DNA of 36,291 nucleotides, from NCBI GenBank assembly GCA_016207565.1, contig JACQPK010000511.1, positions 1-36,291 on the forward strand, in the 5' to 3' direction. Every line of letters starts with the position of its first letter. Positions within the stretch are counted from its first letter, which is position 1. Under the pieces are notes generated by a model, which made no database searches, was not told the DNA's origin, and saw only the letters and a list, made by a program, of their open reading frames with translations. Below are positions 8,305 to 31,999 of the stretch, piece after piece. Origin of the DNA: Elusimicrobiota bacterium (lineage in GTDB: Bacteria > Elusimicrobiota > Elusimicrobia > UBA1565 > JACRDR01). A program made the position numbers and the translations under genes.

Positions 8305-8966
8305 TGCCGTACGAGCTCTCGCATCTCGACTACTCCGACGACATCCTCGGGCCGATCCAGCCCGACGAGGCCCTGCTCCTCTACGGGCTGGTCCGGGTGC
8401 TCGCCCCGCGAGTCGTCGTGGAGATCGGATTCTGCGAGGGGCACTCGGCGAGGAACTTTCTCAAGGCGCTCGGCCCCGACTCCGTCCTCTACAGCTTCGA
8501 CCCGGATCCCGCCTGCGCCGAGCGCGCCGCGGCCTTAAACGACCCGCGGTTGCGCTTCGTCGCGAAGCGCCAGGAGGACTTCCTCCCCGACGACATCGAC
8601 CGGCGCCCGATCGACCTCCTGTTCATCGACGCCTCGCACGACCCGGACCTGAACCTGCGGTTCTTCGACCGCGTCCGGGGTTCTCTCGCCGAAAGCGCGA
8701 TCGTCGCGGTCCACGACACCGGGACGTGGGACGAGCGCGTGATCCCGGTCGAGTACGGGATGTGGATCGAGCACGCGCGCGACGTCGTGCGGCGCGACCC
8801 GGCCGCCCGCGTGGGCGCCACCGAGGTCGCGCACCAGCCGGGAGAGCGTCGCTTCGTCAACCGGCTGAAGGCGGAGCATCCCGAGCTCGAGCAGCTCCAC
8901 CTCCACTCGGTGCGCGTCCGGCGCCACGGGCTCACGCTCCTGCAGCGCTACCGGCCGTTACCCTGA
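8304..8966 (+). CDS. Class I SAM methyltransferase (Methyltransf_24 type)
   Basis: 220-residue Rossmann-fold methyltransferase resembling the CmcI/Methyltransf_24 group. Motif I is VVEIGFCEGHSARN. The acidic end of strand 2 is SFDPDP, and the family-typical LLFIDASHDPDLNLRFF is followed by an AVHDTG segment. These proteins often act on sugars or small molecules in glycan and secondary-metabolite loci. The start ATG overlaps the preceding stop (TGATG), suggesting translational coupling. Its own TGA stop is part of the extended -10 element of the next gene. The acceptor is unknown. Confidence 0.8.
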   Translation: MPYELSHLDYSDDILGPIQPDEALLLYGLVRVLAPRVVVEIGFCEGHSARNFLKALGPDSVLYSFDPDPACAERAAALNDPRLRFVAKRQEDFLPDDIDRRPIDLLFIDASHDPDLNLRFFDRVRGSLAESAIVAVHDTGTWDERVIPVEYGMWIEHARDVVRRDPAARVGATEVAHQPGERRFVNRLKAEHPELEQLHLHSVRVRRHGLTLLQRYRPLP

Positions 8967-8993: not shown

Positions 8994-9284
8994 ATGCCCG
9001 CAACCGCCGCCGTGAAGACGCGCCGCACCTTCAAGCATGCGTCGCGCGCCGCCTGGCGCAAGGTCGCCGACGAGGCGATCATCCTCGACGTCGAGAGCGC
9101 CGAGTACTACTCCCTGACGGGCCCGGGCCTGCGCGCCTGGGAGCTCCTGGGCGAAGGAAAGACCGCGCGCCGGATCGCCGAACGCCTCGCCGAGGAGTAC
9201 GACGCCCCGCCCCGGCGCATCGAGGCCGACGTGGAGGCCCTCGTGGCCGACCTGAAGCGCGCGAAGCTGATCCAGACGGCGTGA
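8994..9284 (+). CDS. PqqD-like RiPP recognition protein
   Basis: 96-residue stand-alone PqqD/RRE-type protein. PqqD folds bind the leader region of ribosomal peptides and present them to a modifying enzyme, commonly a radical SAM protein. Family hallmarks are visible. A degenerate strand region AIILDVESAEYYSLTGPGLRAWELL matches the usual 'D-x-x-x-x-x-Y-x-L-N-x-x-G-x-x-x-W' pattern, followed by helices with ARRIAERLAEEYD and VEALVADLKRAKLI. It overlaps the radical SAM gene by four bases (GTGA), so the two are probably coupled. A leader-like peptide is encoded 2.3 kb downstream in the same run. PqqD-like proteins also occur near glycan genes without a known peptide, so the partner is inferred. 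Confidence 0.85.
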   Translation: MPATAAVKTRRTFKHASRAAWRKVADEAIILDVESAEYYSLTGPGLRAWELLGEGKTARRIAERLAEEYDAPPRRIEADVEALVADLKRAKLIQTA

Positions 9285-10564
9285 TCGTCTTCGTCGACCC
9301 GCCCAGCCCGGAAGGCTTCGTCGCCTTCCGGCACTCGCACGGAGGCTACGGCGAGTGCTGCAAGACGAGCCGCCTGCGTGTCCCCACCCTCGACATCTTC
9401 CTCGCGGCGAGCCGCGTGCTGGAGGCGGGCCGCGAAGCCTCGGTCGTCGACTCCGTCCTCGAGGGGCACGGCCCCGAGGAATGCGTCGCGGAGATCCTGC
9501 GCCGGCGGCCCACGGCCGTCGCGCTCCGCACCGCGGTGGGCTCCCGGCAGGAGGACCTCGCGGTCGCCGAGCTCTTGCGCGCGCGCTTCGACGGCCCGAT
9601 CGTGTTCTTCGGACCGGCCGCCCAGCCGTCGTTCTTCCTCGCCTCCTCCGCGGTCGACGGGGTGCTCGCGGGGGAAGGCATCGAGCCGTTCGTCGAGCTC
9701 GCGCGCCGGCCGAGCCGCCGCGCGGCTCGGGCCCTCGCGGCCGGGCCGATGGACCTCGAGCGGTTGCCCGTGCCTCGGTGGGACCTGGTCGACTACCGGA
9801 GCTACTCCTACGTGACGGCGCAGTCGAGCTGGGGCTGCCCCTTTCGCTGCGGCTACTGCCCCTATCCCGTGACCCAAGGCCCCACCTGGCGCGCGCGGCC
9901 GATCCCGGCGGTCGTCGAGGAGTTCCGCGCGCTGCGCGACCGCTACGGCCTTCGGTTCGTCCTCCTGCGCGACCCCGAGTTCACGCTGGACCGCCGCCGC
10001 GCGGCCGCGCTTTGTGAGGCGCTGCTGGAGGCGGGAACCCCGATCTTGTGGGGCTGCGAGACGCGGCTCGACACCCTCGACGACGAGCTCATCGACCGCA
10101 TGGCCCGCGCGGGCTGCATGCGCGTCGCCTTCGGCGTCGAGTCGGTCGAGCCCGCCATCCTCGCCGCCCAGGGCCGGCGGGCCCTCTCCCCGGCGGCGAT
10201 CCGCCGCCGGGTCGGAGCCCTCAAGCGGCGGGGGATGCTCACCTACGCCATGTACATCATCGGCCTTCCCGGCGAAACCGAAGCCTCGGCGCGGCGAACG
10301 GCGGACTTCGCTCTCGAGCTCGACACGAACGCGGCGTCGTTCTCCTTGGCGACGCCGTTCCCCGGGACCCGGCTCGAACGCCGGGCGAAATCCGACGGGC
10401 TCTCGGCGCCCGGCGAGCCGCGGATGACGAGTTGCGTGCCGACCCTTTCCTCCGGACCGCTCGCGCCCGGCGAGGCCGAGCGGCTGTACCTCGAGGCTAA
10501 AGCGAGATGGAAACGACACAAAGGCGAGTCCCGGTCCGAGTCCCGGCCTTTCGCCCTTTCCTGA
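9281..10564 (+). CDS. B12-binding-type radical SAM enzyme
   Basis: 427-residue radical SAM protein. Residues ~1-130 resemble a cobalamin-binding Rossmann domain (RRRPTAVALRT ... VFFGPAA ... AVDGVLAGEGIEPF), but I do not see the DxHxxG base-off histidine motif, so cobalamin use is uncertain. The 4Fe-4S cluster motif is C186-x3-C190-x2-C193 in WGCPFRCGYCPYP. The TIM-barrel continues with GCETRLDTLDDELIDRM and FGVESVEP, ending in a short C-terminal region without SPASM cysteines. The gene starts with GTG overlapping the PqqD stop and runs 58 bp into the aminotransferase gene. Candidate substrates are the nearby peptide or a sugar/lipid intermediate. Confidence 0.85.
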   Translation: MIVFVDPPSPEGFVAFRHSHGGYGECCKTSRLRVPTLDIFLAASRVLEAGREASVVDSVLEGHGPEECVAEILRRRPTAVALRTAVGSRQEDLAVAELLRARFDGPIVFFGPAAQPSFFLASSAVDGVLAGEGIEPFVELARRPSRRAARALAAGPMDLERLPVPRWDLVDYRSYSYVTAQSSWGCPFRCGYCPYPVTQGPTWRARPIPAVVEEFRALRDRYGLRFVLLRDPEFTLDRRRAAALCEALLEAGTPILWGCETRLDTLDDELIDRMARAGCMRVAFGVESVEPAILAAQGRRALSPAAIRRRVGALKRRGMLTYAMYIIGLPGETEASARRTADFALELDTNAASFSLATPFPGTRLERRAKSDGLSAPGEPRMTSCVPTLSSGPLAPGEAERLYLEAKARWKRHKGESRSESRPFALS

Positions 10565-11646
10565 CCCGCGCCGAGTCCGGCGCGGTCCAGGAGGCGGTCG
10601 AGAGCGGCTGGCTCGGCACCGGCATCTACACGCGCCTCTTCGAGGAGCGGCTGACCCGTTCGCTCGGGGCCCCGCACGCCCACGCCGTGAGCTCGGGGAC
10701 CGCCGCGCTCCACCTCGCGCTCCAGTCCCTCGGAGCCGGCGGCGGCGAGGTGTTGACGACGGCCGTCACGAACGTCGCGACGAACCACGCGATCCTCTAC
10801 AACCGCGCGAAGCCCGTCTTCTGCGAGGTCGACCCCGAGACGGGCCTGATCGACCCGGCCGAGATCGAGCGGCGCAGGACTCGCCGCACGCAGGCCGTCG
10901 TCGTCGTCCATCTCGGGCAGGCCTGCGACATGGACGCCGTCCGCCGAGCCGCCGGCCGCGTGCCGGTCGTGGAGGACGCCTGCGCGTGCCTCCCCGGAGC
11001 CGGCGCCTCCCGCGGCCGGCGGCTCGGCACGCTGGGAGACGCCGCGTGCTTCAGCTTCGGCCGCTTCAAGGGCCTCACGACGATCGAGGGCGGGGCCGTC
11101 GTCCACGCGCGCCCGGCGCTCGCCGAGCGCCTCCTCCGCCTGCGCCGGATGGGCCTCGCGGAAAAGGACGGCGAGCTCGTCCGCTCGCCCGAGGGGCTCT
11201 CGGAGCTCGGCTGGCATTATCGTTTGGGCGATCTTCCCGCCGCCCTCGGCCTGGCCCAGCTCGAGCGGCTCCCCGCGCTCCGGGAACGCCTCGCGACGAT
11301 CGAGCGCCGCTACCGGGCCGGGCTGCGCTCGCTCGCGTGGCTCGAGCGGATCCCGGCCGCGCCCGGCTCGGAGGGCGTCCTCGGCTCCTTGAGGGTGCGC
11401 CTGAGAGGCGGAGGGCGCGACGCCCTTCGCCGCCATCTCGCCGCGCGAGGGATCGGGCTGAACGACCCGCTCTATCCGAGCCACCGCTACCGGCTCTACC
11501 GGCCGTTCGGGCGCGGCCTGCCCGCCTCCGATCGGTTCTGCGCCGAGACGCTCGAGCTTCCGTTCTATCCCGGGCTCGCCGACCGCGAGGTCGACCTTGT
11601 CCTCGAGACCCTCGCCGATTTCAGGAGACGCCACCATGGCACGTAA
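10507..11646 (+). CDS. DegT/DnrJ/EryC1 PLP-dependent aminotransferase
   Basis: 379-residue fold-type I PLP enzyme of the sugar aminotransferase family, which transaminates keto-sugar nucleotides to amino sugars. Visible features are SSGTAALHLALQSLG near residue 60 (phosphate-binding region), VVEDACACLPG (PLP-binding Asp) and FSFGRFKGLTTIEGGAVV, in which K188 is the expected Schiff-base lysine. C-terminal segments include GWHYRLGDLPAALGLAQLE, matching the family N-Y-R-L-x-D-I/L-x-A-A-L/I-G motif. It overlaps the radical SAM gene by 58 bp and the small peptide gene by 11 bp. The ribosome-binding site for the peptide gene is inside its last codons. It probably supplies an amino sugar for the polysaccharide. 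Confidence 0.9.
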   Translation: METTQRRVPVRVPAFRPFLTRAESGAVQEAVESGWLGTGIYTRLFEERLTRSLGAPHAHAVSSGTAALHLALQSLGAGGGEVLTTAVTNVATNHAILYNRAKPVFCEVDPETGLIDPAEIERRRTRRTQAVVVVHLGQACDMDAVRRAAGRVPVVEDACACLPGAGASRGRRLGTLGDAACFSFGRFKGLTTIEGGAVVHARPALAERLLRLRRMGLAEKDGELVRSPEGLSELGWHYRLGDLPAALGLAQLERLPALRERLATIERRYRAGLRSLAWLERIPAAPGSEGVLGSLRVRLRGGGRDALRRHLAARGIGLNDPLYPSHRYRLYRPFGRGLPASDRFCAETLELPFYPGLADREVDLVLETLADFRRRHHGT

Positions 11647-11743
11647 CAACCGACGCCCGAAGGCGACGAAGAAGAAAAAGAAGGCGTACAAGAAGCCGAA
11701 GCTCGTCAAGCACGGCGTCCTCTCGATCGTCGAAGGCGATTAG
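11636..11743 (+). CDS. Small Lys-rich peptide with lasso-leader-like motif
   Basis: 35-residue peptide. ATG at 11636 follows AGGAG (11623-11627) by eight bases, a good ribosome-binding site. The gene overlaps the aminotransferase end by 11 bp and shares its last base with the next start (TAGTG). Thirteen of 35 residues are Lys or Arg, with five consecutive Lys at 12-16. The C-terminal half reads Y18-x2-P21-x-L23-x3-G27, the leader signature recognised by RRE/PqqD-type proteins in lasso peptides; the usual Thr six residues after Gly is E33. Only eight residues follow the Gly, so a classical core is missing. Together with the PqqD and radical SAM genes, this suggests a RiPP precursor or a peptide tag. 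It could instead be a small basic protein. Confidence 0.65.
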   Translation: MARNNRRPKATKKKKKAYKKPKLVKHGVLSIVEGD

Positions 11744-14487
11744 TGCGGGTCGGCCTCGCCTGGATCGACCCCGCGGACCCCACGGACCGCGCGATCGCGC
11801 TCGGCCTGGGCGAGGCGCTGCGCCGGGCGGGCCACGACGTCGCGATCCTCGGCCCGCGCCGCCGCGACGCGGCGCCGCGGGAGCGGCTCGAGGGCTTCCC
11901 CCTGCACCGCGTCGAGCCGCGGGGAGGCGCCTCGAAGCTCGTCGCGCTCGGACGCGAGCTCGCGATCGACGTCTGGCACGTGCACGTCTTCGCGCGCGAC
12001 CACCGCGTCTTCGCGCAGGCCGCCTCGGCCTCCGGCCGGCCTTTCGTGGCGACGCTGCACCTGGTCCTCGAGGACTACCTGCCGTTCGTCGGAGGCAGGG
12101 AGGGGCTCCGCCGGCTCCTCGCCGGGGCGGCCTCGGTCGCGACCGTCAGCCGTTCGGCGCGCGCCGAGCTGGGCGCGATCCTCCCGGAGTGGCGGCGCCG
12201 GAGCGTCGTGATCCCGAACGGAGCGCCGTCCGCGCCGGTTCCCGCGCGCCAGGCCGAAGCCCCCTATGTCGTCTGTCCGGCGCGGCTCGCTCCGTATAAA
12301 GGGCAGGACGTGCTGCTCATGGCCTTCGCCCAGGCGCGCGAGCGCGTTCCCGGGCTGAGGCTGTATTTGTGCGGACGCGATCAGACAGGCGGAGCGCTCG
12401 CCGGGTTCGCCGGACGCCTCGGCCTTTCGAGCGCCGTGCGGCTGACCGGCGGCCTCGCGCCGCGGCGGCTCGCGCGCCTCGTCGCGGGCGCGCGGGCGGT
12501 CGTCTTGCCTTCGCGCCGCGAAAACCTGCCCCTGGCCGTGCTCGAGGCGATGGCGGCGGGCCAGGCGATCGTGGCGACCCAGGTCGGCGGCGTTCCGGAG
12601 CTCGTCCGTCACCGCGAATCGGCGCTCCTCGTCCCGCCGGCCGACCCTCAGCGCCTCGCGGACGCGCTGGTCGAGGTCTGCCGCTCGGGACCCTTGCGGC
12701 GCCGCCTCGGGGCCGCGGCCCGGAGGCGGGCGCGTTCCTTCTCCTGGTCGGCCGCGGCTCGCCGCTACGCCGCGCTTTATCGGGCCGCGGCCGCCTGCCT
12801 CGCCTTCGCCTTCGCGGCGGCGCCCCGGTCGTCTGAGGCCGGCCAGTTCCTCACCGACCCGTTCCTCCAATCGCCCGGCGAGCGATCGGTGCGCGTCGTC
12901 TGGTTCACCGAGTTCGAAGGCCGCGGCCACGCGGCGATCTACGGGCCGAACCTCATCCGCCGCGCGCCGGCCGTCACCACGCGCCTCACGCGCGCCTATG
13001 AGGACGCGGAGTCCCGCCATCCCTTGAGGCCGTCGGGCCCGGCCCCCGTGCTCCGGACGATCTTCCGCCACGAGGCGTTCCTCGAGGCGCTCCCCGCGGG
13101 CCGCGCGGTCCCGTACTACGCGCGGAGCATCAAAGACGACGTCGAGCTCCGCAGCCGGACGTTTACGGCGCGCGGCCGGCCTCCCAAGGGAGCGCCGCTG
13201 ACGCTGCTCCTCACCTCCGATCACCAGCTCAAGCCCCGCTCCGCGGCGAACATCCAGAAGGCGGCGGAGACGGCGGGGACGATCGACGCGGTCGTGTTCG
13301 CCGGAGACCTCGCGAACGTGCCGGACCGCGCCTCGGAGTGGTTCGACGACGCGCGCGGCAACGCGTTCTTCCCGGTGCTGCAGGGGCGCGCGAGCTACGC
13401 CCTGGCCTGCCCCGGGGGCACGATCACCTACCGCGGCGCGCCGGTGATCCAGAGCGCGCCGCTGTTTACGGCGATCGGCAACCACGAGGTCATGGGTCGC
13501 TTCCGTCCGGAGACGAGCCTTTCCAAGCAGATCTTCGACGCCTATCCCCGCGGAGAGGCGGCAAAGCGCCTGAAGGAGCGCGGCGCGAAGGCCGGCGGGC
13601 GCGCGCTCGAAGACGAGTCGCACAACGTCCGGACCTACGAGGAGCTCTTCACGCTGCCGCGCTCCGGTCCCGGCGGTGAGCGTTACTACGCGACGACCTT
13701 CGGCGACGTCCGGCTCGTCAGCCTCTTCGCCACGCGCCAGTGGCGGCCGGGCCCCGAGGAGGCGCCCGAGCCGCACCGCGGGAAGTATGCGGAACGGGCG
13801 GAGGACCTCGCGGACCCCAGCCGGTGGGGCTTCGGCAGCCTCATCTTCGAGCCGATCGGGCGAGGCAGCGCCCAGTTCGAGTGGCTGAAGCGCGAGGTCG
13901 CCGGCGCGCCGTGGCGCCGGGCGGCGGTGCGCGTCGCGTTCTTCCATGAGCCCGTCCACACGCTGGGCGACAAGGCGGTCCCCGCCTTCACCGACCCCGT
14001 GCCGGTCGTCGAAAGGAAGGACGGGCGCGTGGTCGCCGTCGCCTACGAGTATCCCCCGGAGAAAAACTTCCTGGTCCACGACGTCGCGCCGCTCCTGGAG
14101 GAGGCCGGCGCGCATCTGGTCCTCTACGGCCACTCGCATCTCTGGAACCGCTTCCGTTCCGCGCGCGGGACGAGCTACCTGGAGACCTCCAACGTCGGCA
14201 ACAGCTACGGCGCGTTCTGGAAGGGCGGCCGGCGCCCGAACCTCCCGCGCGCTCCGCGGGCGCCGGAGGACTACCCGCCGTCGGGCGATCCCCACGGACT
14301 CGAGCCGATCGCGCCCTCGCTGGCCCCCTTCCACGACGCCGCCGGAGAGCCCGAGCCCTTCGTGTCCTCCAACGAGCTGACCGTCTTCACGCTGCTGCGC
14401 ACCGCGACCCGCCGCGTCGAGAGCTGGCGTTGGGATCCCTGCCGCCCCGACGAGCCGGCCGTCAAGTTCGACGAGTTCGGGCTTTGA
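11743..14487 (+). CDS. GT4 glycosyltransferase fused to purple-acid-phosphatase-like domain
   Basis: 914-residue single frame. Residues 1-346 are a complete GT4 transferase (VWHVHVF, SRSARAEL, VVIPNG, PSRRENLPLAVLEAMAAG, VGGVPELV). It ends just where its paralogue at 28307 ends. A short hydrophobic stretch (residues 348-360) resembling a signal peptide core follows. Next come an Fn3-like PAP N-terminal segment (FLTDPFLQSPGERSVRVVW) and a calcineurin-like metallophosphoesterase with SDHQ (D493), GDL (D522), GNHE (H581) and GHSH (H797, H799). No ATG/GTG/TTG lies between 12697 and the hydrophobic stretch; the nearest in-frame upstream option is TTG at 12694. Either this is a true fusion (cytoplasmic GT, exported phosphatase), or two genes with an unusual internal start, or an assembly or sequencing error joined them. 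Confidence 0.8.
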   Translation: MRVGLAWIDPADPTDRAIALGLGEALRRAGHDVAILGPRRRDAAPRERLEGFPLHRVEPRGGASKLVALGRELAIDVWHVHVFARDHRVFAQAASASGRPFVATLHLVLEDYLPFVGGREGLRRLLAGAASVATVSRSARAELGAILPEWRRRSVVIPNGAPSAPVPARQAEAPYVVCPARLAPYKGQDVLLMAFAQARERVPGLRLYLCGRDQTGGALAGFAGRLGLSSAVRLTGGLAPRRLARLVAGARAVVLPSRRENLPLAVLEAMAAGQAIVATQVGGVPELVRHRESALLVPPADPQRLADALVEVCRSGPLRRRLGAAARRRARSFSWSAAARRYAALYRAAAACLAFAFAAAPRSSEAGQFLTDPFLQSPGERSVRVVWFTEFEGRGHAAIYGPNLIRRAPAVTTRLTRAYEDAESRHPLRPSGPAPVLRTIFRHEAFLEALPAGRAVPYYARSIKDDVELRSRTFTARGRPPKGAPLTLLLTSDHQLKPRSAANIQKAAETAGTIDAVVFAGDLANVPDRASEWFDDARGNAFFPVLQGRASYALACPGGTITYRGAPVIQSAPLFTAIGNHEVMGRFRPETSLSKQIFDAYPRGEAAKRLKERGAKAGGRALEDESHNVRTYEELFTLPRSGPGGERYYATTFGDVRLVSLFATRQWRPGPEEAPEPHRGKYAERAEDLADPSRWGFGSLIFEPIGRGSAQFEWLKREVAGAPWRRAAVRVAFFHEPVHTLGDKAVPAFTDPVPVVERKDGRVVAVAYEYPPEKNFLVHDVAPLLEEAGAHLVLYGHSHLWNRFRSARGTSYLETSNVGNSYGAFWKGGRRPNLPRAPRAPEDYPPSGDPHGLEPIAPSLAPFHDAAGEPEPFVSSNELTVFTLLRTATRRVESWRWDPCRPDEPAVKFDEFGL

Positions 14488-25681: not shown

Positions 25682-27346
25682 GTGCACTCCCGGGCGGTCG
25701 GGCTCTTGATCCTCGTCGTGGCGTTGGCCTACGGCCGCACGCTCCGAAACGGCTTCGTCTGGGACGACGCGATCTACATCGAGCACAATCCGTTCGTGCA
25801 GGACCCCGCCAATCTCCGCCATCTCGTCGACCCGCGCTTCTACCTGGGGCGGCAGGCGGTCCTCGCCGGCAGCCGCCCCGTGTTTCTGGGCTCGCTGCTC
25901 ATCGACCGGCTCGTCTGGGGGGACCGGGCCTGGGGCTGGCACCTGACGAACGTGCTGCTCCATGCGGCGGACGCCCTCTGGGTGTACGCGCTGGGGCTCG
26001 AGCTCTTCGCCGCGTGGCCCGGGGCGCTGGCGGCCGCGCTGTTATTTGCCGCGCACCCGGCCGCGTCGGAGGCGGTCAACGGCGTGAGCTTCCGGACGGA
26101 CCTTCTCGCGGCCTTCTTCACGTTCGCGGCGCTCTACACCTACCTTCGCGCGCGGCGCCAGGTGGGCCGTCGCGCCGTAGCCAGGCTCGCGGGGGCCGCC
26201 GGGCTAGCGGGGCGGAGCCCCGTTGTGCCCGCGCTCGCAGGGGCTATTGGGGCCGCGGGCCCAGCGGGGCGGAGCCCCGCGGTGCCCGCGCTCGCAGGGG
26301 CTATTGGGGCCGCGGGCCTCTTCGGACTCGGCCTCCTCGCCAAAGAGAGCGCGGCGTCCTTCCTGCTCCTGCTCCCGCTCGCGGAGTTCCATACGCTCCC
26401 CTCGGGCGAGGCGACCGAGCGCAATCGCCGGCTCGCGTGGGCCCTCGGCCTCTCCCTCGCGGCCGCGGCCGCCTTCGCGGCTTTCCACTCGGCGCGCTTC
26501 CGCTACGACCTCGGCGCCGGCCGTGCCCGCGCGCCCTCTTCGGGCCTCACCGCGGGCGCGCCGGTCCCGGCCCTCGACCCGGGCGTGAGCGACCAGCCGT
26601 CGCCCCCCCCTTGGCGCGAGTATTACGAGAAGACGGGCACGCGCGTCGCGACCACGGTCCGGATCCTCGCGACGTATGCGCGGCTCTTCGTCTTCCCGCA
26701 TCCGCTCGTCGTCGACCGCGCGCCGCCGCTGGCCGGCGGAACCCTGGCCTCCATGCTGCTCCTCGCGGGGCTCTTCGCCGCCGCCCTCCGTTGGCGAAGC
26801 CGGCCGCTGGGGGCGGGGCTCGCGTGGTGCGCCGCCGCGCTCGTGCCGGTCGCGGGTCTCTATCCGCTCTACAACCCGATCGCGGAGCGCTACCTCTATC
26901 TCGCCGCGGCCGGCGCCGCGTGGGCGCTGGCCGACCTCGGCACGCTCCTGCCCCCGCGCGCGCGGCCCGCGGTGCTGGCCGCCGCCGTGCTGGCGCTCGC
27001 GGGCCGGGCCTGGGCGAGGACGCACGACTGGCGCTCGAACGACACGCTGTTCGCCGCCGACGCCCGCGGCGTGCCCCAACACCCGCGCGTGCGGCTCAAC
27101 CGCGGTCTGGCGCTCTGGGAGACGGGGAACCGGCGCCAGGCCGAGGATCAGCTCCGGCAGGCGGTCGACGCGCATCCCGGCTACGTCGAGGCGTGGGTGA
27201 ACCTCGGCATGCTGCGGCTGGAGCTCGGCCGCCCCGTCGAGGCGCTCTCGGCCTTCGAACGGGCGCTCGAGCTCTCGCCCGGCGACCGCCTGGCCCGTTA
27301 CGGCCGTGCGATCGCCTCGAAGCAGCCTTCGGGAGCGAAGCGATGA
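25682..27346 (+). CDS. TMTC-like GT-C membrane glycosyltransferase with TPRs
   Basis: 554-residue multi-pass protein resembling the TMTC/GT105 class of lipid-phosphate-sugar-using mannosyltransferases. The N-terminal helix is followed by TLRNGFVWDDAIYIEHN (D28/D29, the catalytic acidic pair of this clan). Further conserved-type segments are RPVFLGSLLIDRLVWG, HLTNVLLHAADALWVYALGL, LFAAHPAASEAVNGVSFRTDLL, LLAKESAASFLLLLP and YNPIAERYLYLAAAG. About ten membrane helices precede two C-terminal TPRs (~residues 465-540). The longer open frame from 25538 is rejected because GTG 25682 follows a -10 box by seven bases. The gene carries an internal 57-bp tandem repeat. The likely role is sugar transfer onto an exported glycan or protein. 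Confidence 0.8.
   Translation: MHSRAVGLLILVVALAYGRTLRNGFVWDDAIYIEHNPFVQDPANLRHLVDPRFYLGRQAVLAGSRPVFLGSLLIDRLVWGDRAWGWHLTNVLLHAADALWVYALGLELFAAWPGALAAALLFAAHPAASEAVNGVSFRTDLLAAFFTFAALYTYLRARRQVGRRAVARLAGAAGLAGRSPVVPALAGAIGAAGPAGRSPAVPALAGAIGAAGLFGLGLLAKESAASFLLLLPLAEFHTLPSGEATERNRRLAWALGLSLAAAAAFAAFHSARFRYDLGAGRARAPSSGLTAGAPVPALDPGVSDQPSPPPWREYYEKTGTRVATTVRILATYARLFVFPHPLVVDRAPPLAGGTLASMLLLAGLFAAALRWRSRPLGAGLAWCAAALVPVAGLYPLYNPIAERYLYLAAAGAAWALADLGTLLPPRARPAVLAAAVLALAGRAWARTHDWRSNDTLFAADARGVPQHPRVRLNRGLALWETGNRRQAEDQLRQAVDAHPGYVEAWVNLGMLRLELGRPVEALSAFERALELSPGDRLARYGRAIASKQPSGAKR
26206..26319 (+). repeat. Two near-identical 57-bp tandem units in frame
   Basis: Units 26206-26262 and 26263-26319 match at 54 of 57 bases, adding 19 residues each to a loop/helix of the TMTC-like protein. 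Each unit contains CGGGGCGGAGCCCCG, a small inverted repeat. A partial third copy extends upstream of 26206. Confidence 0.75.
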
Positions 27347-28338
27347 TCTCCGTCATCATCTTGGGCTCGCGGCCGCGATCGCTCGAGCGGTGCCTGGCGA
27401 GCATCGCGGCGTCGACGCCGCCGGGCCCGATCGAGACGCTGGTCGTCGTGGACGAGCGCGCGGCGGCGGCTCGCTCCGCCGTCGAGGCCTGGGCGGGCCG
27501 CCTCGCGGGGCTGCGCGTCCTCTCGGCCCGCGCGCTCCGGGTGGGCGCCGCGCGCAATCTCGCGATCGCGCAAGCGCGGGGCCGCTGGCTGTGCTTCCTC
27601 GACGACGACGTGGTGGTGCCGCCGGACTATTTCGCGACGCTGGCCGACAAGGCGGCGAGCCACCCCGAGGCCGACGCGATCGGCGGCCCGAATCTCACGC
27701 CCCCGGACAGCGGGGTGTTCGAGCGCGCGGTAGGCCGGCTCCTGTCGTCGTGGTTCGGCGCCTGGCGTATGCGGCGCCGCGCGACGGGCCACCCTCACGA
27801 CGCGTGGGTGGACGAGCGCAGCCTGATCCTCTGCAACCTCGCCCTGCGCGCGGGGCGGCTCGAGCGGGAGAGCCTGGCCTTCGATGAGCGCCTCGAGCGC
27901 AACGAGGAGAACCTCCTGCTCGAGGAGCTCCGGGCGCGGGGCGCGCGCCTGCTGCACGCGCCGGGGCTCTGGGTCTATCATGAGCGCCGCTCCACGCTCC
28001 CGGCCTTCGCCCGGCAGTGCTATCGGTCCGGGGTCGGCCGCGCGCGGATGACGTTCCTCCTGCCCGGCTCGCTGAGACCGGCCTATCTCCTGCCCCTGGC
28101 CCCCGCGCTCGCGCTGGCCGCGGGCGGACCGTGGGCCGCCGCCTACCTGGCGGCCGTCGTTCTCAACGCCGCTTGGTGCGCGCTCGGCGACGAGCGGCCT
28201 TTCGCCGTCTTCGCTCGGCTATGCGCCCTCTTCCCCGTAGGCCACCTGAGCAACGCGGCGGGGCTCGCGGCCGGGACCCTCCAGGCGGCGTTCGACCGGC
28301 AACCCCATGAGGATCGCGCTCGTTACGCCGACGCGTAG
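27343..28338 (+). CDS. GT2 glycosyltransferase with C-terminal membrane helix
   Basis: 331-residue GT-A transferase starting at ATG 27343 (ATGA overlap with the TMTC-like gene). ISVIILGSRPRSLERCLASI opens the Rossmann half, IETLVVVDERA occupies the usual D-N/D-G position, and RWLCFLDDDVVVPPDYF supplies the DDD metal motif. NEENLLLEELRARG takes the place of the ED motif. The C-terminus has hydrophobic segments (YLLPLAPALALAAGG, WAAAYLAAVVLNAAW), so it is probably membrane-bound. Its end overlaps the following GT4 by 32 bp. It resembles transferases with C-terminal anchors that act on lipid-linked acceptors, which is an inference. Confidence 0.8.
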   Translation: MISVIILGSRPRSLERCLASIAASTPPGPIETLVVVDERAAAARSAVEAWAGRLAGLRVLSARALRVGAARNLAIAQARGRWLCFLDDDVVVPPDYFATLADKAASHPEADAIGGPNLTPPDSGVFERAVGRLLSSWFGAWRMRRRATGHPHDAWVDERSLILCNLALRAGRLERESLAFDERLERNEENLLLEELRARGARLLHAPGLWVYHERRSTLPAFARQCYRSGVGRARMTFLLPGSLRPAYLLPLAPALALAAGGPWAAAYLAAVVLNAAWCALGDERPFAVFARLCALFPVGHLSNAAGLAAGTLQAAFDRQPHEDRARYADA

Positions 28339-29305
28339 CGACCCCGCGCACCGCCGCCTGGCGCGCGCGCTCGCCTGCGAGTTCCGGCGGCGCGGGCATC
28401 GGGTCCGCTGGCTCACGTCCTCTCCGGGGGCGCGGACGCGTTTCGACGTCTGCCATGTCCATTGGTTCGCGCGCGGCTTCGAGGGCTTGGGCCTGGCGGC
28501 GTGGCCCGAGGGAGCCCGGCTCGTGCTGACCCACCAGGCGGCCTCGTTCGGACTCATCGAGCATCCGGCGGCGTTCGGCGCGCTCGCCCGCCGGGCCGGC
28601 CTCGTGACCACGGTCTCCCGGCGCGCGGCCCGCGAGCTGGCCGTGTCCATTCAGAAGCGCGCGGCGGTGGTCCCCAACGGCGTCGCGCCGGCGCGACGCA
28701 CGGCGCGCCCCGCCCGCTCGCGGACCACGCTGCTGGCGGTCAGCCGGATCGCCGCCTACAAGGGGCTGGACACGTTGGCCCTCGCGTTCGCGTCGCTGAA
28801 GGACCGGCGCCCCGGCCTCCGGCTCGAGGTATACGGGCCCGATCAGACGGGCGGGCGTTTCGCCCGGTTCGTCCGCCGGCTCGGCCTGGGCGGACGCGTC
28901 GAGCTCCGCGGGGACCGTCCCGAGCGCGAAGTCGACCGCGCGCTCGCGCGCTGCGAGGCCTTCGTCCTCCCCTCGCGGCAGGAGAATCTGCCGATGGCTC
29001 TCCTCGAGGCGATGGCGGCGGGACGGCCGATCGTCGCCTGCCGCGTGGGCGGCGTGCCGGAGGCGGTCCGCCATGGGAGGGAGGCTCTCCTCGTGCCCCC
29101 GGGCTCCCCCGCGGCGCTTGGACGCGCGCTCCGGTCCCTGCTGGAGCGGCCCGCGCTGGCCCGCCGCCTGGGCCGCGCGGCCGCGAGGCGCGCGCGCCGC
29201 TTCACCTGGCGGAACGTTGCGACGAACTATCTCGAGGCCTACCGAACCTTGCTGGATGCAAGCCCTAGAAAGAGGGCCCCGTCAGCACGCGAAAAAGGTA
29301 GGTAA
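28307..29305 (+). CDS. GT4 family glycosyltransferase
   Basis: 332-residue GT-B transferase, a close paralogue of the GT4 half of the fusion protein at 11743. Shared blocks include DQTGG before ...RLGL, the PSR-ENLP-A-LEAMAAG motif, the VGGVPE-VRH segment and the C-terminal ARRARRFTW...Y segment. Those blocks also mark where the GT4 part of the fusion ends. It shows VCHVHWFARG, VVPNGVAPARR and AVSRIAAYKGLD as the domain interface. It overlaps the preceding GT2 by 32 bp and ends with a short basic tail. It is the last glycan gene before the pilin operon. Confidence 0.85.
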   Translation: MRIALVTPTRSDPAHRRLARALACEFRRRGHRVRWLTSSPGARTRFDVCHVHWFARGFEGLGLAAWPEGARLVLTHQAASFGLIEHPAAFGALARRAGLVTTVSRRAARELAVSIQKRAAVVPNGVAPARRTARPARSRTTLLAVSRIAAYKGLDTLALAFASLKDRRPGLRLEVYGPDQTGGRFARFVRRLGLGGRVELRGDRPEREVDRALARCEAFVLPSRQENLPMALLEAMAAGRPIVACRVGGVPEAVRHGREALLVPPGSPAALGRALRSLLERPALARRLGRAAARRARRFTWRNVATNYLEAYRTLLDASPRKRAPSAREKGR

Positions 29306-29344
29306 TAGCTGTCTCGAGCCTGACAAACTGTGACTGGGTTCATA

Positions 29345-29373
29345 TTGATTTTTAGGGGAAACCCGCTTAAACT
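29345..29373 (+). promoter_or_regulatory. Sigma-70-like promoter for the pilin operon
   Basis: TTGATT (29345-29350), a 17-nt spacer and TAAACT (29368-29373) form a well-spaced promoter, followed by seven bases and ATG 29381. The start is probably leaderless. The 75-bp gap holds nothing else except ACTGTCCCG, which also occurs in the hairpin region at 5240. Confidence 0.6.
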
Positions 29374-29380
29374 GTCCCGA

Positions 29381-31999
29381 ATGCGCAGACGGCTGGGATC
29401 GCGGGGTGTCTCGCTGGTCGAGCTTATGGTGGCCGTGGCCATCCTCTCGATCGGCATCCTGGGATTTTTCGGGGCGTTCCGCTTCATCACCAAGTCGGTG
29501 CACGCCAGCCGGAGCCGCACCCTCGCGGCCAACCTGACCCAGGAGCGCATCGAGAACCTCAAGAACATCTCGTACTACAGCCTGCTCGTGACCACCTCGG
29601 CGGACGTGGACAACTCGTTTACGCCAGGCATCACCTACGACAACGTCAACTACCCGCCGGACACGGTGGCGATCGGAAACATCGTCTACAAGCGCTACAC
29701 CTTCGTCTCCCTGGCCCAGATCAACAACAACGTCATCTCGACCGTCACGTTCACCTACCCGGACACCGGGATGAAGCAGATCACGGTGCACGTGATCTGG
29801 TCCGAGGAAGGCAACCAGAAGAAGTGGTCGATGAGCAACCTGCTCGAGAACCCCAACGTGGCGCCCCTCGACTGCAGCTACTCCGGCGCGGTCACGCGGA
29901 ACACCGGGGGCAACCTGTCGGGCGCGCTCGTGCGGGTCCTCCAGAACCCGGACTGGCAAGCCGAGACGGACTCCTCGGGCAACTACACCTTCCGGGCGCA
30001 CCACGGCACCTACGACCTCCGAGCCTCCCTGGCCGGCTTTTACGACCAGACCCAGGCCTCGATCGGGTGCGTGCTGGGGTCCAACTACATCCAGAACTTC
30101 GCGCTCACGCAGATCACGACGGGACAAGTCTCGGGCAACGTGTGGATGAACACGAACCTCGTCGTCGCCCAGGTCGTGGTCGCGACCTACACCTGGGCCG
30201 GCAACAACGATACGTTCGCCGAGGTCGAGTACGTCAGCCTCTATAACCCCACGACCTTCGCGATCAACATCGGCGACGACATCACCGCCGATCAGGTCAG
30301 CATGAATTACCAGGAGGAGGGTGGGGCCTCGAGCGTCCCGCCGGGCTCGTGGAACTTCGTGCATTTCTCCACCTACATTCCGCCGCTCAGCTATTACCTC
30401 ATCGCGAACGCGACGGCGTTCATGATCAACGGAGCCGTGCACAACGTGGACGCGTGCTACAAGAACGGCGCCAACTGCGACACGAGCCCCGATCCCGCGG
30501 GCACAGACTTCCTCAAGAACAACTCGGCGGCGCAGCTCATCGTGGGAGACCCGATCAACTGGATCGCCTACGACACGATCTGCTGGGACGACGGGGACAC
30601 GGTGGCGACCGATGCGGGCGCGGGGCTCGGGACTTGCGAAGGCACGTCCATCCCGAACTACAATGTGCCGCCGCTCGACGGCATCGGACTGGGCAATATG
30701 ATCGTGCGCGTCTCGAGCCCGGGCGCGCCCGTCCTCAGCTTGTTCGGCTCCTACGGCTCGGCCTACGACTCCGACGACAACCGCTCGGACTTCCGTTTCC
30801 CGTCGGACACCTTCATCGGCATCCCGCTCAACGCGGGCTCCGTCTTCGACGGCGAGTTCCCGGTGATCGCCGGCAAGCCCGGGATCGGCGCGCTCGTGAC
30901 GTCGAACGACTCGCTCTCGGGCTCGACCGTCGCCTACCGCGATTACATCGCGAGCACCACCTACAACCTCGCCTTCGCCCGCTATACGATCCCGGCGGTC
31001 TCGACGGGGACCTGGGCGGTGGTCATCGCGACCAACACGTACTACAAGCAGATCTCGAACGTGATCGTCACCGCGAACGCGACGACCGCGATCCCGAACG
31101 CGGCGACGACGCCGGCCGAGCCGTATTCGGGAGGCGTCGGGCAGATCCTATCGAGCCACACCCTCGGCGGGTTCGTGAACGGCGTCGTGGTGGACGTGAA
31201 CGGCTCCGGGGTCTCGGGCATCTCGGTGCTCGCGGGTGGCAAGGCGACCACCACCGGGGCGAACGGTCGGTACTTCGTGCAGACCTCCAGCGGCCCGATC
31301 TACGTGATCGCCAACCCCAACAACGCCAACCCCGTGTACATCCAGGATATCGCCCAGGTGACGCTCAGCGCCGGAGAGGTGGCCACTCAGAACTTCACGA
31401 TGCTCCAGGGCGGACTCCTGACCGGCTACGTCACGAGCGGCACGACGCCGCTGCCGAACGTCGTCGTGGCGGCGACCCTCGGCGGAAACCAGATGGGCTC
31501 GGGCACCTCCGACACGAGCGGCACCTTCATCATCCGCAACCTCTCCACGGGCACGTACACGATCAAGCCCGTCCTCGACACGGGCCAGGACTCGAGTCCC
31601 AACTCGATGAGCGCGACGGTGGTCTCGACCAGCTCGGTCTTCGTCGGGACGTTCACCGTCGCCGGCTCGCTCGGCAACATCGCCGGCACGATCACTTACA
31701 AAGGCGAGCCGCTGACGACGGGGGCGCTGGTCCTCGCCTCCTCCGCGTCGATCGCCTCCGTCCCCTCGGCGCTCGCGGCCTCCTCCGCGCCGGCCCTCAC
31801 CCCGCTCTACGCGGTCTCGAGCAAGGCCGACGGCACCTACGAGATCGCCACGCGCGGGACGAGCACCTACACCTACAATCTCGCCGTGTACGTCCCGGAG
31901 ATCCAAGGCGACGGGTCCGTCGTGATCACGACCAAGACCTGGTCCGGCATCAGCGTCTCGCCGAGCGCCACGACGAACCTGGACCTCACGATCCCATGA
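29381..31999 (+). CDS. PilV-like pseudopilin with large exported passenger
   Basis: 872-residue type IV pilin-family protein. The prepilin signal is basic and short, with cleavage expected after G9 and Glu at +5 (G|VSLVELMVAVAILSIGI). ATG 29381 is preferred over 29330 because it lies just after the promoter and gives a standard signal. After a ~130-residue pseudopilin region come several beta-rich modules: two or three CarboxypepD_reg-like segments (SGALVRVLQNP..YTFRAHHGTYDLRASLAGF; SGISVLAGGKATTTGANGRYFV; LPNVVVAATLGGN..YTIKPVL). Between them is a segment around residues 265-510 that recalls lamin-tail domains (AEVEYVSLYNPT...GSWNFVHF...YYLIANA). Such tips suggest an adhesin-like minor pilin. 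It overlaps the next gene by ATGA. Confidence 0.8.
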   Translation: MRRRLGSRGVSLVELMVAVAILSIGILGFFGAFRFITKSVHASRSRTLAANLTQERIENLKNISYYSLLVTTSADVDNSFTPGITYDNVNYPPDTVAIGNIVYKRYTFVSLAQINNNVISTVTFTYPDTGMKQITVHVIWSEEGNQKKWSMSNLLENPNVAPLDCSYSGAVTRNTGGNLSGALVRVLQNPDWQAETDSSGNYTFRAHHGTYDLRASLAGFYDQTQASIGCVLGSNYIQNFALTQITTGQVSGNVWMNTNLVVAQVVVATYTWAGNNDTFAEVEYVSLYNPTTFAINIGDDITADQVSMNYQEEGGASSVPPGSWNFVHFSTYIPPLSYYLIANATAFMINGAVHNVDACYKNGANCDTSPDPAGTDFLKNNSAAQLIVGDPINWIAYDTICWDDGDTVATDAGAGLGTCEGTSIPNYNVPPLDGIGLGNMIVRVSSPGAPVLSLFGSYGSAYDSDDNRSDFRFPSDTFIGIPLNAGSVFDGEFPVIAGKPGIGALVTSNDSLSGSTVAYRDYIASTTYNLAFARYTIPAVSTGTWAVVIATNTYYKQISNVIVTANATTAIPNAATTPAEPYSGGVGQILSSHTLGGFVNGVVVDVNGSGVSGISVLAGGKATTTGANGRYFVQTSSGPIYVIANPNNANPVYIQDIAQVTLSAGEVATQNFTMLQGGLLTGYVTSGTTPLPNVVVAATLGGNQMGSGTSDTSGTFIIRNLSTGTYTIKPVLDTGQDSSPNSMSATVVSTSSVFVGTFTVAGSLGNIAGTITYKGEPLTTGALVLASSASIASVPSALAASSAPALTPLYAVSSKADGTYEIATRGTSTYTYNLAVYVPEIQGDGSVVITTKTWSGISVSPSATTNLDLTIP

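Follow-up and report, generated by a model that had tools for sequence, protein, structure and literature searches.

A short conserved precursor, a PqqD-type chaperone and a radical SAM (S-adenosylmethionine) enzyme are shared by the pathways of pyrroloquinoline quinone (PQQ; PqqA/D/E) and mycofactocin (MftA/B/C, with a glycosyltransferase). In lasso peptide systems, the precursors carry a YxxPxL motif at positions -17 to -12 (PMC10368454). Loci of unknown class in which a RiPP recognition element (RRE; RiPP, ribosomally synthesised and post-translationally modified peptide) is associated with a radical SAM enzyme or a glycosyltransferase were already reported with RRE-Finder (PMC7470986), and the general idea of such a unit is therefore known. 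Here we describe a cluster on a 36,291-nucleotide stretch of DNA from an uncultured Elusimicrobiota bacterium (contig JACQPK010000511.1, positions 1 to 36,291; the window), in which a stand-alone PqqD protein, a radical SAM enzyme, a DegT aminotransferase, a peptide of 35 residues and a GT4 glycosyltransferase are encoded one after another. We think it rather probable that these genes form an RRE-guided, RiPP-like peptide-modification unit, with the short invariant tail of the peptide as its substrate. As in RRE-dependent RiPP systems generally, a small precursor under protein-level selection was found beside an RRE and tailoring enzymes. The features of the unit are as follows:

8994..9284, + strand: stand-alone PqqD/RRE protein, 96 aa (Pfam PqqD, 60.5 bits)
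9281..10564, + strand: AprD4-like radical SAM enzyme, 427 aa (Pfam Radical_SAM; CxxxCxxC at residues 186-193)
10507..11646, + strand: DegT/DnrJ/EryC1/StrS aminotransferase (sugar-type, pyridoxal phosphate), 379 aa (Pfam DegT, 268 bits)
11623..11627, + strand: AGGAG ribosome-binding site of the peptide gene (from the sequence)
11636..11743, + strand: peptide gene, 35 aa, MARNNRRPKATKKKKKAYKKPKLVKHGVLSIVEGD (from the sequence and the comparison of relatives)
11743..14487, + strand: GT4 glycosyltransferase (about residues 1-345) and metallophosphoesterase, fused in frame (Pfam)

From PqqD through the peptide, every successive gene pair overlaps or is in direct contact, and the stop of the peptide gene overlaps the GTG with which the GT4 gene begins (11743). 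The peptide consists of a variable, Lys/Arg-rich N-terminus (residues 1-17), a Y18-x2-P21-x-L23-x3-G27 segment and the invariant tail VLSIVEGD, so that exactly eight residues stand C-terminal of Gly27, with Ser30 as the sole hydroxyl residue among them. A 35-codon gene with an AGGAG site, its coordinates, the gene order and the eight residues after the glycine had all been given in a first-pass annotation of this DNA, and they agree with the sequence. The motif ORF (open reading frame) alone is weak evidence for a real gene. It was the only ORF of 20-80 aa with [YW]xxPxLxxxG in the window, but at least one such ORF also appeared in 7 of 60 first-order Markov shuffles (mean 0.13). The homologue search covered 97 relatives, and the ending KHGVLSIVEGD-stop was common to seven Elusimicrobiota genomes, where it followed dissimilar lysine-rich N-termini: pairwise identity was 89% over the last 16 residues and about 36% N-terminal of those. 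Furthermore, the last 11 codons in the seven genomes differed by seven or more synonymous changes, with not one amino acid replaced, and the probability of such a pattern without constraint is about 5e-5 to 2e-4. The first-pass annotation had named homologous small ORFs at the same place in related genomes, and coding constraint on them, among the checks to be made; both were observed. Because the tail is invariant, the changes are synonymous only and the radical SAM enzyme has a matching distribution (see next), it is virtually certain that the peptide gene is real and forms one unit with PqqD, the radical SAM enzyme and GT4. A chance ORF was ruled out by the conservation and the synonymous-only change.

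When the peptide tail and the radical SAM subfamily were scored in 341 Elusimicrobiota genomes, a peptide with this tail (class A) and the radical SAM subfamily occurred in the same seven genomes and in no others. The peptide scored 65-74 bits in the seven genomes (next match, 27 bits) and the radical SAM subfamily 567-764 bits (next match, 237 bits). The seven genomes span three families, and the other members of those families mostly carry neither. In the complete loci, the order PqqD-radical SAM-DegT-peptide-GT4 was kept, and PqqD stayed beside the radical SAM gene in the relatives. DegT was present in six of the seven genomes, and the unit of genome G014 was divided between two contigs; L034, which had been considered as an additional genome with the radical SAM enzyme, turned out to be the second of these contigs. 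The GT4s adjoining class A peptides clustered together, separate from the other GT4s of these loci (fork support 89/90; parent fork 100/95), and the GT4 located after the radical SAM gene in genome G030 fell inside the same group. The GT4 downstream of the peptide is thus part of the unit, and it is the GT4 portion of the window's protein that is the conserved partner. In that protein (11743-14487) the GT4 and the metallophosphoesterase are joined via a signal-peptide-like stretch, and the GT4 of the relatives stops near residue 345; the in-frame joining is either a true fusion or an assembly error. The radical SAM search, with one genome per species, was restricted to two sequence patterns. 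Three loci with radical SAM relatives outside Elusimicrobiota (L036, L037 and L043) had nothing nearby, in the sequence examined, that matched PqqD or the peptide of the window.

The closest solved relative of the PqqD protein was TbiB1, a lasso RRE (E 5.4e-7), and its best NCBIfam matches were lasso RRE models, below cut-off. On the basis of what is known of this family, PqqD very likely binds the peptide. The PQQ and mycofactocin systems have in common with the window a short conserved precursor, a PqqD-type protein, a radical SAM enzyme and, as the invariant tail suggests, a fixed product. However, the radical SAM enzyme here is of the AprD4 family and not of the SPASM type, a DegT gene is present, the peptide motif is another one, and PqqD scored far under the cut-off of the PQQ equivalog model TIGR03859 (17.8 against 46 bits). 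AprD4 is a radical SAM diol dehydratase, which converts a sugar diol to a ketone. Its structure, crystallised with a sugar substrate, was the closest solved relative of the window's enzyme by sequence (6fd2, E 4.6e-62) and also the best Foldseek match of its AlphaFold2 model (mean pLDDT 78.5; E 8.8e-23, 29% identity). The score against the NCBIfam AprD4 equivalog NF033070 was 175.7 bits, with a cut-off of 500. The sequence and the predicted structure point to a relative of AprD4, not an equivalog. The first-pass annotation had spoken of a B12-type radical SAM enzyme; this was dropped, as Pfam matched the Radical_SAM domain alone, with no B12-binding domain, and AprD4 is nearest. The closest solved relative of the DegT protein was ArnB, and it resembles ArnB- and perosamine-type sugar aminotransferases. 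The two enzymes therefore recall the AprD4 and DegT pairs of aminoglycoside and amino-sugar biosynthesis, but here an RRE and a short peptide accompany them, and the CxxxCxxC motif is canonical, whereas AprD4 aligns with one additional residue. The radical SAM enzyme, DegT and GT4 are all from sugar-acting families.

The likeness to lasso peptides lies in the recognition parts. Applied to the peptide, the lasso numbering (PMC10368454) puts L23 at -12, G34 at -1 and D35 at +1, so the peptide corresponds to a leader plus one residue. At the sequence level, the lasso-type YxxPxLxxxG leader was seen in the peptide and in its family, but a core with a ring-forming Asp or Glu after the leader was not, since the peptide stops at +1. 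No B2 transglutaminase-like protease (PF13471) scored over the cut-off in 14 genomes with such peptides; no Asn-synthetase-like cyclase (PF00733) was found on the window's contig, and the nearest same-contig PF00733 matches in relatives lay about 28-42 kb from the peptide. The split-B1 lasso systems, especially those of phosphorylated lasso peptides (BsfA/B1/K), are similar in the leader, in a B1 protein as the nearest relative of PqqD and in a kinase, for sister loci carry an HprK-like kinase with the motif of the lasso precursor kinases. They are different in that the unit here lacks core, B2 and nearby cyclase, adds the radical SAM enzyme, DegT and GT4, and keeps its tail invariant within a class. 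The unit is lasso-like in recognition, but with no protease over cut-off and no cyclase near the peptide it falls outside the lasso family, and an ordinary lasso cluster, which would also need more than an end at +1, was ruled out. The first-pass annotation, which had found no lasso protease or cyclase in the window and had concluded that this was not an ordinary lasso cluster, was right on this point. Its proposal of a RiPP-like unit stands with respect to the lasso-type leader, the stand-alone RRE and the absent lasso maturation genes. Its further option, which places the recognition sequence behind the modified part, is disfavoured, since the N-terminal half is free to vary and the residues that follow the glycine are fixed in each class and change from one class to the next.

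A broader profile, built from 18 peptides and run on the 341 genomes, gave 43 matches in 39 genomes. When the surroundings of the 43 peptides were read, a shared pattern was seen with few exceptions: an N-terminus rich in K/R and, after it, [YW]-x2-P-x-[LIVM]-x2-H-G. The tails fell into class A (VLSIVEGD, n=7), class B (TALA[HR]SY, n=5), class C (A[AS]F and a final Tyr, n=8), class D ([IL]S[ED]VASAFKP, n=16) and others (n=7). The leader segment is constant over the phylum and the tail varies together with the enzymes; two tail classes have their own enzyme set. In class D, the unit contains a SPASM-like radical SAM enzyme, PqqD, the peptide, a FabD/MdcH-like acyltransferase and an HprK-like kinase. 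PqqD and the acyltransferase lay no more than 3 kb from the peptide in 16/16 cases each, and the radical SAM enzyme and the kinase in 15/16 each. The class D radical SAM enzyme and acyltransferase were each near just 2 of the 27 peptides from outside the class (Fisher p about 1e-8 and 6e-10, respectively, uncorrected for kinship). For example, the class D unit is seen at L112:7699-10961 and at 15 further loci (e.g. L108, L109, L147-L154), and the order is nearly invariant in the 16 genomes. In classes B and C a GT4 mostly follows immediately 3' of the peptide, and an HprK-like kinase is sometimes present. The HprK-like kinases share with the lasso precursor kinases the residues His / G-x-G-K-[ST] / Asp-Asp (PMC10368454). 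The systems named HPr-rel-A and GeoRSP in NCBIfam likewise combine a PqqD-family chaperone with an HprK-like kinase or a radical SAM enzyme, as the sister loci do, but all matches were far under the cut-offs and the class A radical SAM enzyme is unrelated to the SPASM enzyme of GeoRSP. Judged from these comparisons, the window's cluster is one of the classes in a family of short peptides that extends across the phylum; the first-pass annotation, which had seen a single cluster, had missed this. None of the precursors scored reached an NCBIfam cut-off, so standard precursor-model mining would miss them.

At L029:4032-4187 (G003, a same-family genome) a longer peptide beside a PqqD gene has the tail LLSMAAFPGGAMAQSWWGWW, unlike the other classes, and it may be a separate RiPP. 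At L111:463-570 and 641-778 (genome G197), two tandem peptides of the short-peptide family follow a single PqqD gene, with the differing tails ITTVAGIIVRE and ITKVAGADDDPVR.

In our favoured explanation, the Y/W-x2-P-x-L-x3-G segment would be the part of the peptide that the stand-alone PqqD grips, in the manner of lasso RREs with their leaders, and PqqD would offer the tail VLSIVEGD to the AprD4-like radical SAM enzyme, DegT and GT4 of the operon. The tail would be the entire substrate region, with no separate core. The residues after the glycine, constant in any one class but not the same from class to class, behave as would be expected of substrate residues; that the operon modifies the tail covalently is quite probable. 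We infer a favoured order of steps because all three enzymes are of sugar-acting families: GT4 would attach a sugar to Ser30, and this sugar would then be edited on the PqqD-held peptide, from diol to ketone by the radical SAM enzyme and from ketone to amine by DegT. That the modification is indeed an edited sugar is a tentative proposal. The product may be a fixed glycopeptide or a peptide-borne amino-sugar for the surrounding envelope polysaccharide locus, in which numerous glycosyltransferases lie around the peptide, rather than a variable antibiotic. Several points weigh against this explanation. The radical SAM enzyme and DegT together could just as well supply the polysaccharide with a free sugar, and no protease or dedicated exporter was identified. 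G030 keeps the peptide, PqqD, the radical SAM enzyme and GT4, but has no close DegT copy and its peptide lies 3.9 kb downstream of the radical SAM gene. Classes B and C are often without PqqD within 3 kb of the peptide, and the Fisher tests take no account of the genomes' shared descent.

A peptide-borne assembly common to the phylum is more speculative, and we hold it to be clearly less likely than not. In such an assembly, RREs would hold short lysine-rich peptides and their fixed tails would be decorated class by class, with a sugar (GT4), an edited sugar (AprD4-like radical SAM enzyme and DegT), an acyl group (FabD/MdcH-like) or a phosphate (HprK-like), and the resulting fixed peptide conjugates would feed or join the envelope glycan. 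If this is true, the recognition module of lasso leader and RRE would serve here for something other than lasso peptides or antibiotics.

The main rival to tail modification as such is that the peptide is a carrier or scaffold, which we regard as unlikely; a carrier or tag for the glycan machinery had been among the options of the first-pass annotation. The EGD C-terminus or Ser30 would tether a growing small molecule or glycan that is later released, and the peptide would be recycled, comparable to the pearlins or the amino-group carrier LysW. The invariant acidic C-terminus with nothing beyond it and the lysine-rich handle fit this idea, and scaffold-peptide pathways are known: in the pearlins (e.g. 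ammosamide), as possibly here, the end of a short peptide is the building platform, and Amm10 joins an RRE-like C-terminus to an AprD4-like N-terminal part (PMC12715798). However, a search of the seven genomes for a PEARL-type ligase (PF04738) gave no match, the control genomes being equally silent, none of the conserved partners was recognised as a ligase gene, and the other classes end with SY, FY or KP and not with an acid.

Less probable still is a leader in trans or regulator, in which PqqD and an unmodified peptide activate the radical SAM enzyme or GT4 for work on free envelope-polysaccharide sugars. A peptide that equals a lasso leader plus one residue, beside sugar-type enzymes in a glycosyltransferase-rich locus, would fit such a role, but the eight residues after the motif are all invariant and change by class with the enzymes, which exceeds the needs of an activating leader. 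We consider it very unlikely that two modules merely coincide, with the radical SAM enzyme, DegT and GT4 making an amino-deoxy sugar and PqqD and the peptide as an unrelated passenger. Each enzyme family has an ordinary role in sugar biosynthesis and the linkage of the peptide is looser in G030; yet the PqqD gene overlaps the radical SAM gene, the peptide gene overlaps the DegT gene, peptide and radical SAM enzyme co-occur perfectly across the 341 genomes, and in other classes peptide-PqqD units partner very different enzymes. A decayed or cryptic lasso cluster, a leader minus its core, would agree with the end at lasso +1 (numbering from PMC10368454) and with a weak, sub-cut-off match to lasso models, but is practically negligible, being already contradicted by the tail, which is under strict purifying selection in the seven genomes, and by the 39 genomes with comparable short-tailed peptides.

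In the open-access literature, no paper combining Elusimicrobi* and PqqD was found, and among the matches listed for Elusimicrobi* and RiPP none appears, by titles and the beginnings of abstracts, to describe such a unit. The peptide family and its class structure apparently have no prior description. They indicate that the lasso leader/RRE module is used across much of a poorly known phylum without the lasso core or chemistry, and each class is a clean, testable enzyme-substrate set. An AprD4-family radical SAM enzyme that may act on a peptide or a peptide-bound sugar would take this family beyond aminoglycoside biosynthesis, from which it is known.

Outside the unit, the window contains further glycosyltransferase genes:

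27346..29302, + strand: GT2 and GT4 genes, the relatives of which sit divergently beside PqqD in G006, G008 and G014

Between the GT2 and GT4 relatives of these three genomes stands an HprK-like kinase; tblastn found none within the window. The kinase of the window's own genome is on another contig (L114, which is G000 contig C140, base 6014 to contig end), where it is cut by the contig end, and a DegT-like gene lies about 3 kb from it. A methyltransferase-like ORF (8306-8966) ends just upstream of PqqD, with which it might be co-transcribed, and is unmatched in the relatives' loci. Finally, 29330-31996 encodes a protein of 889 residues that has an N-terminal methylation motif together with repeats of the carboxypeptidase-regulatory-like type, and relatives of this protein are present in four other class A genomes.

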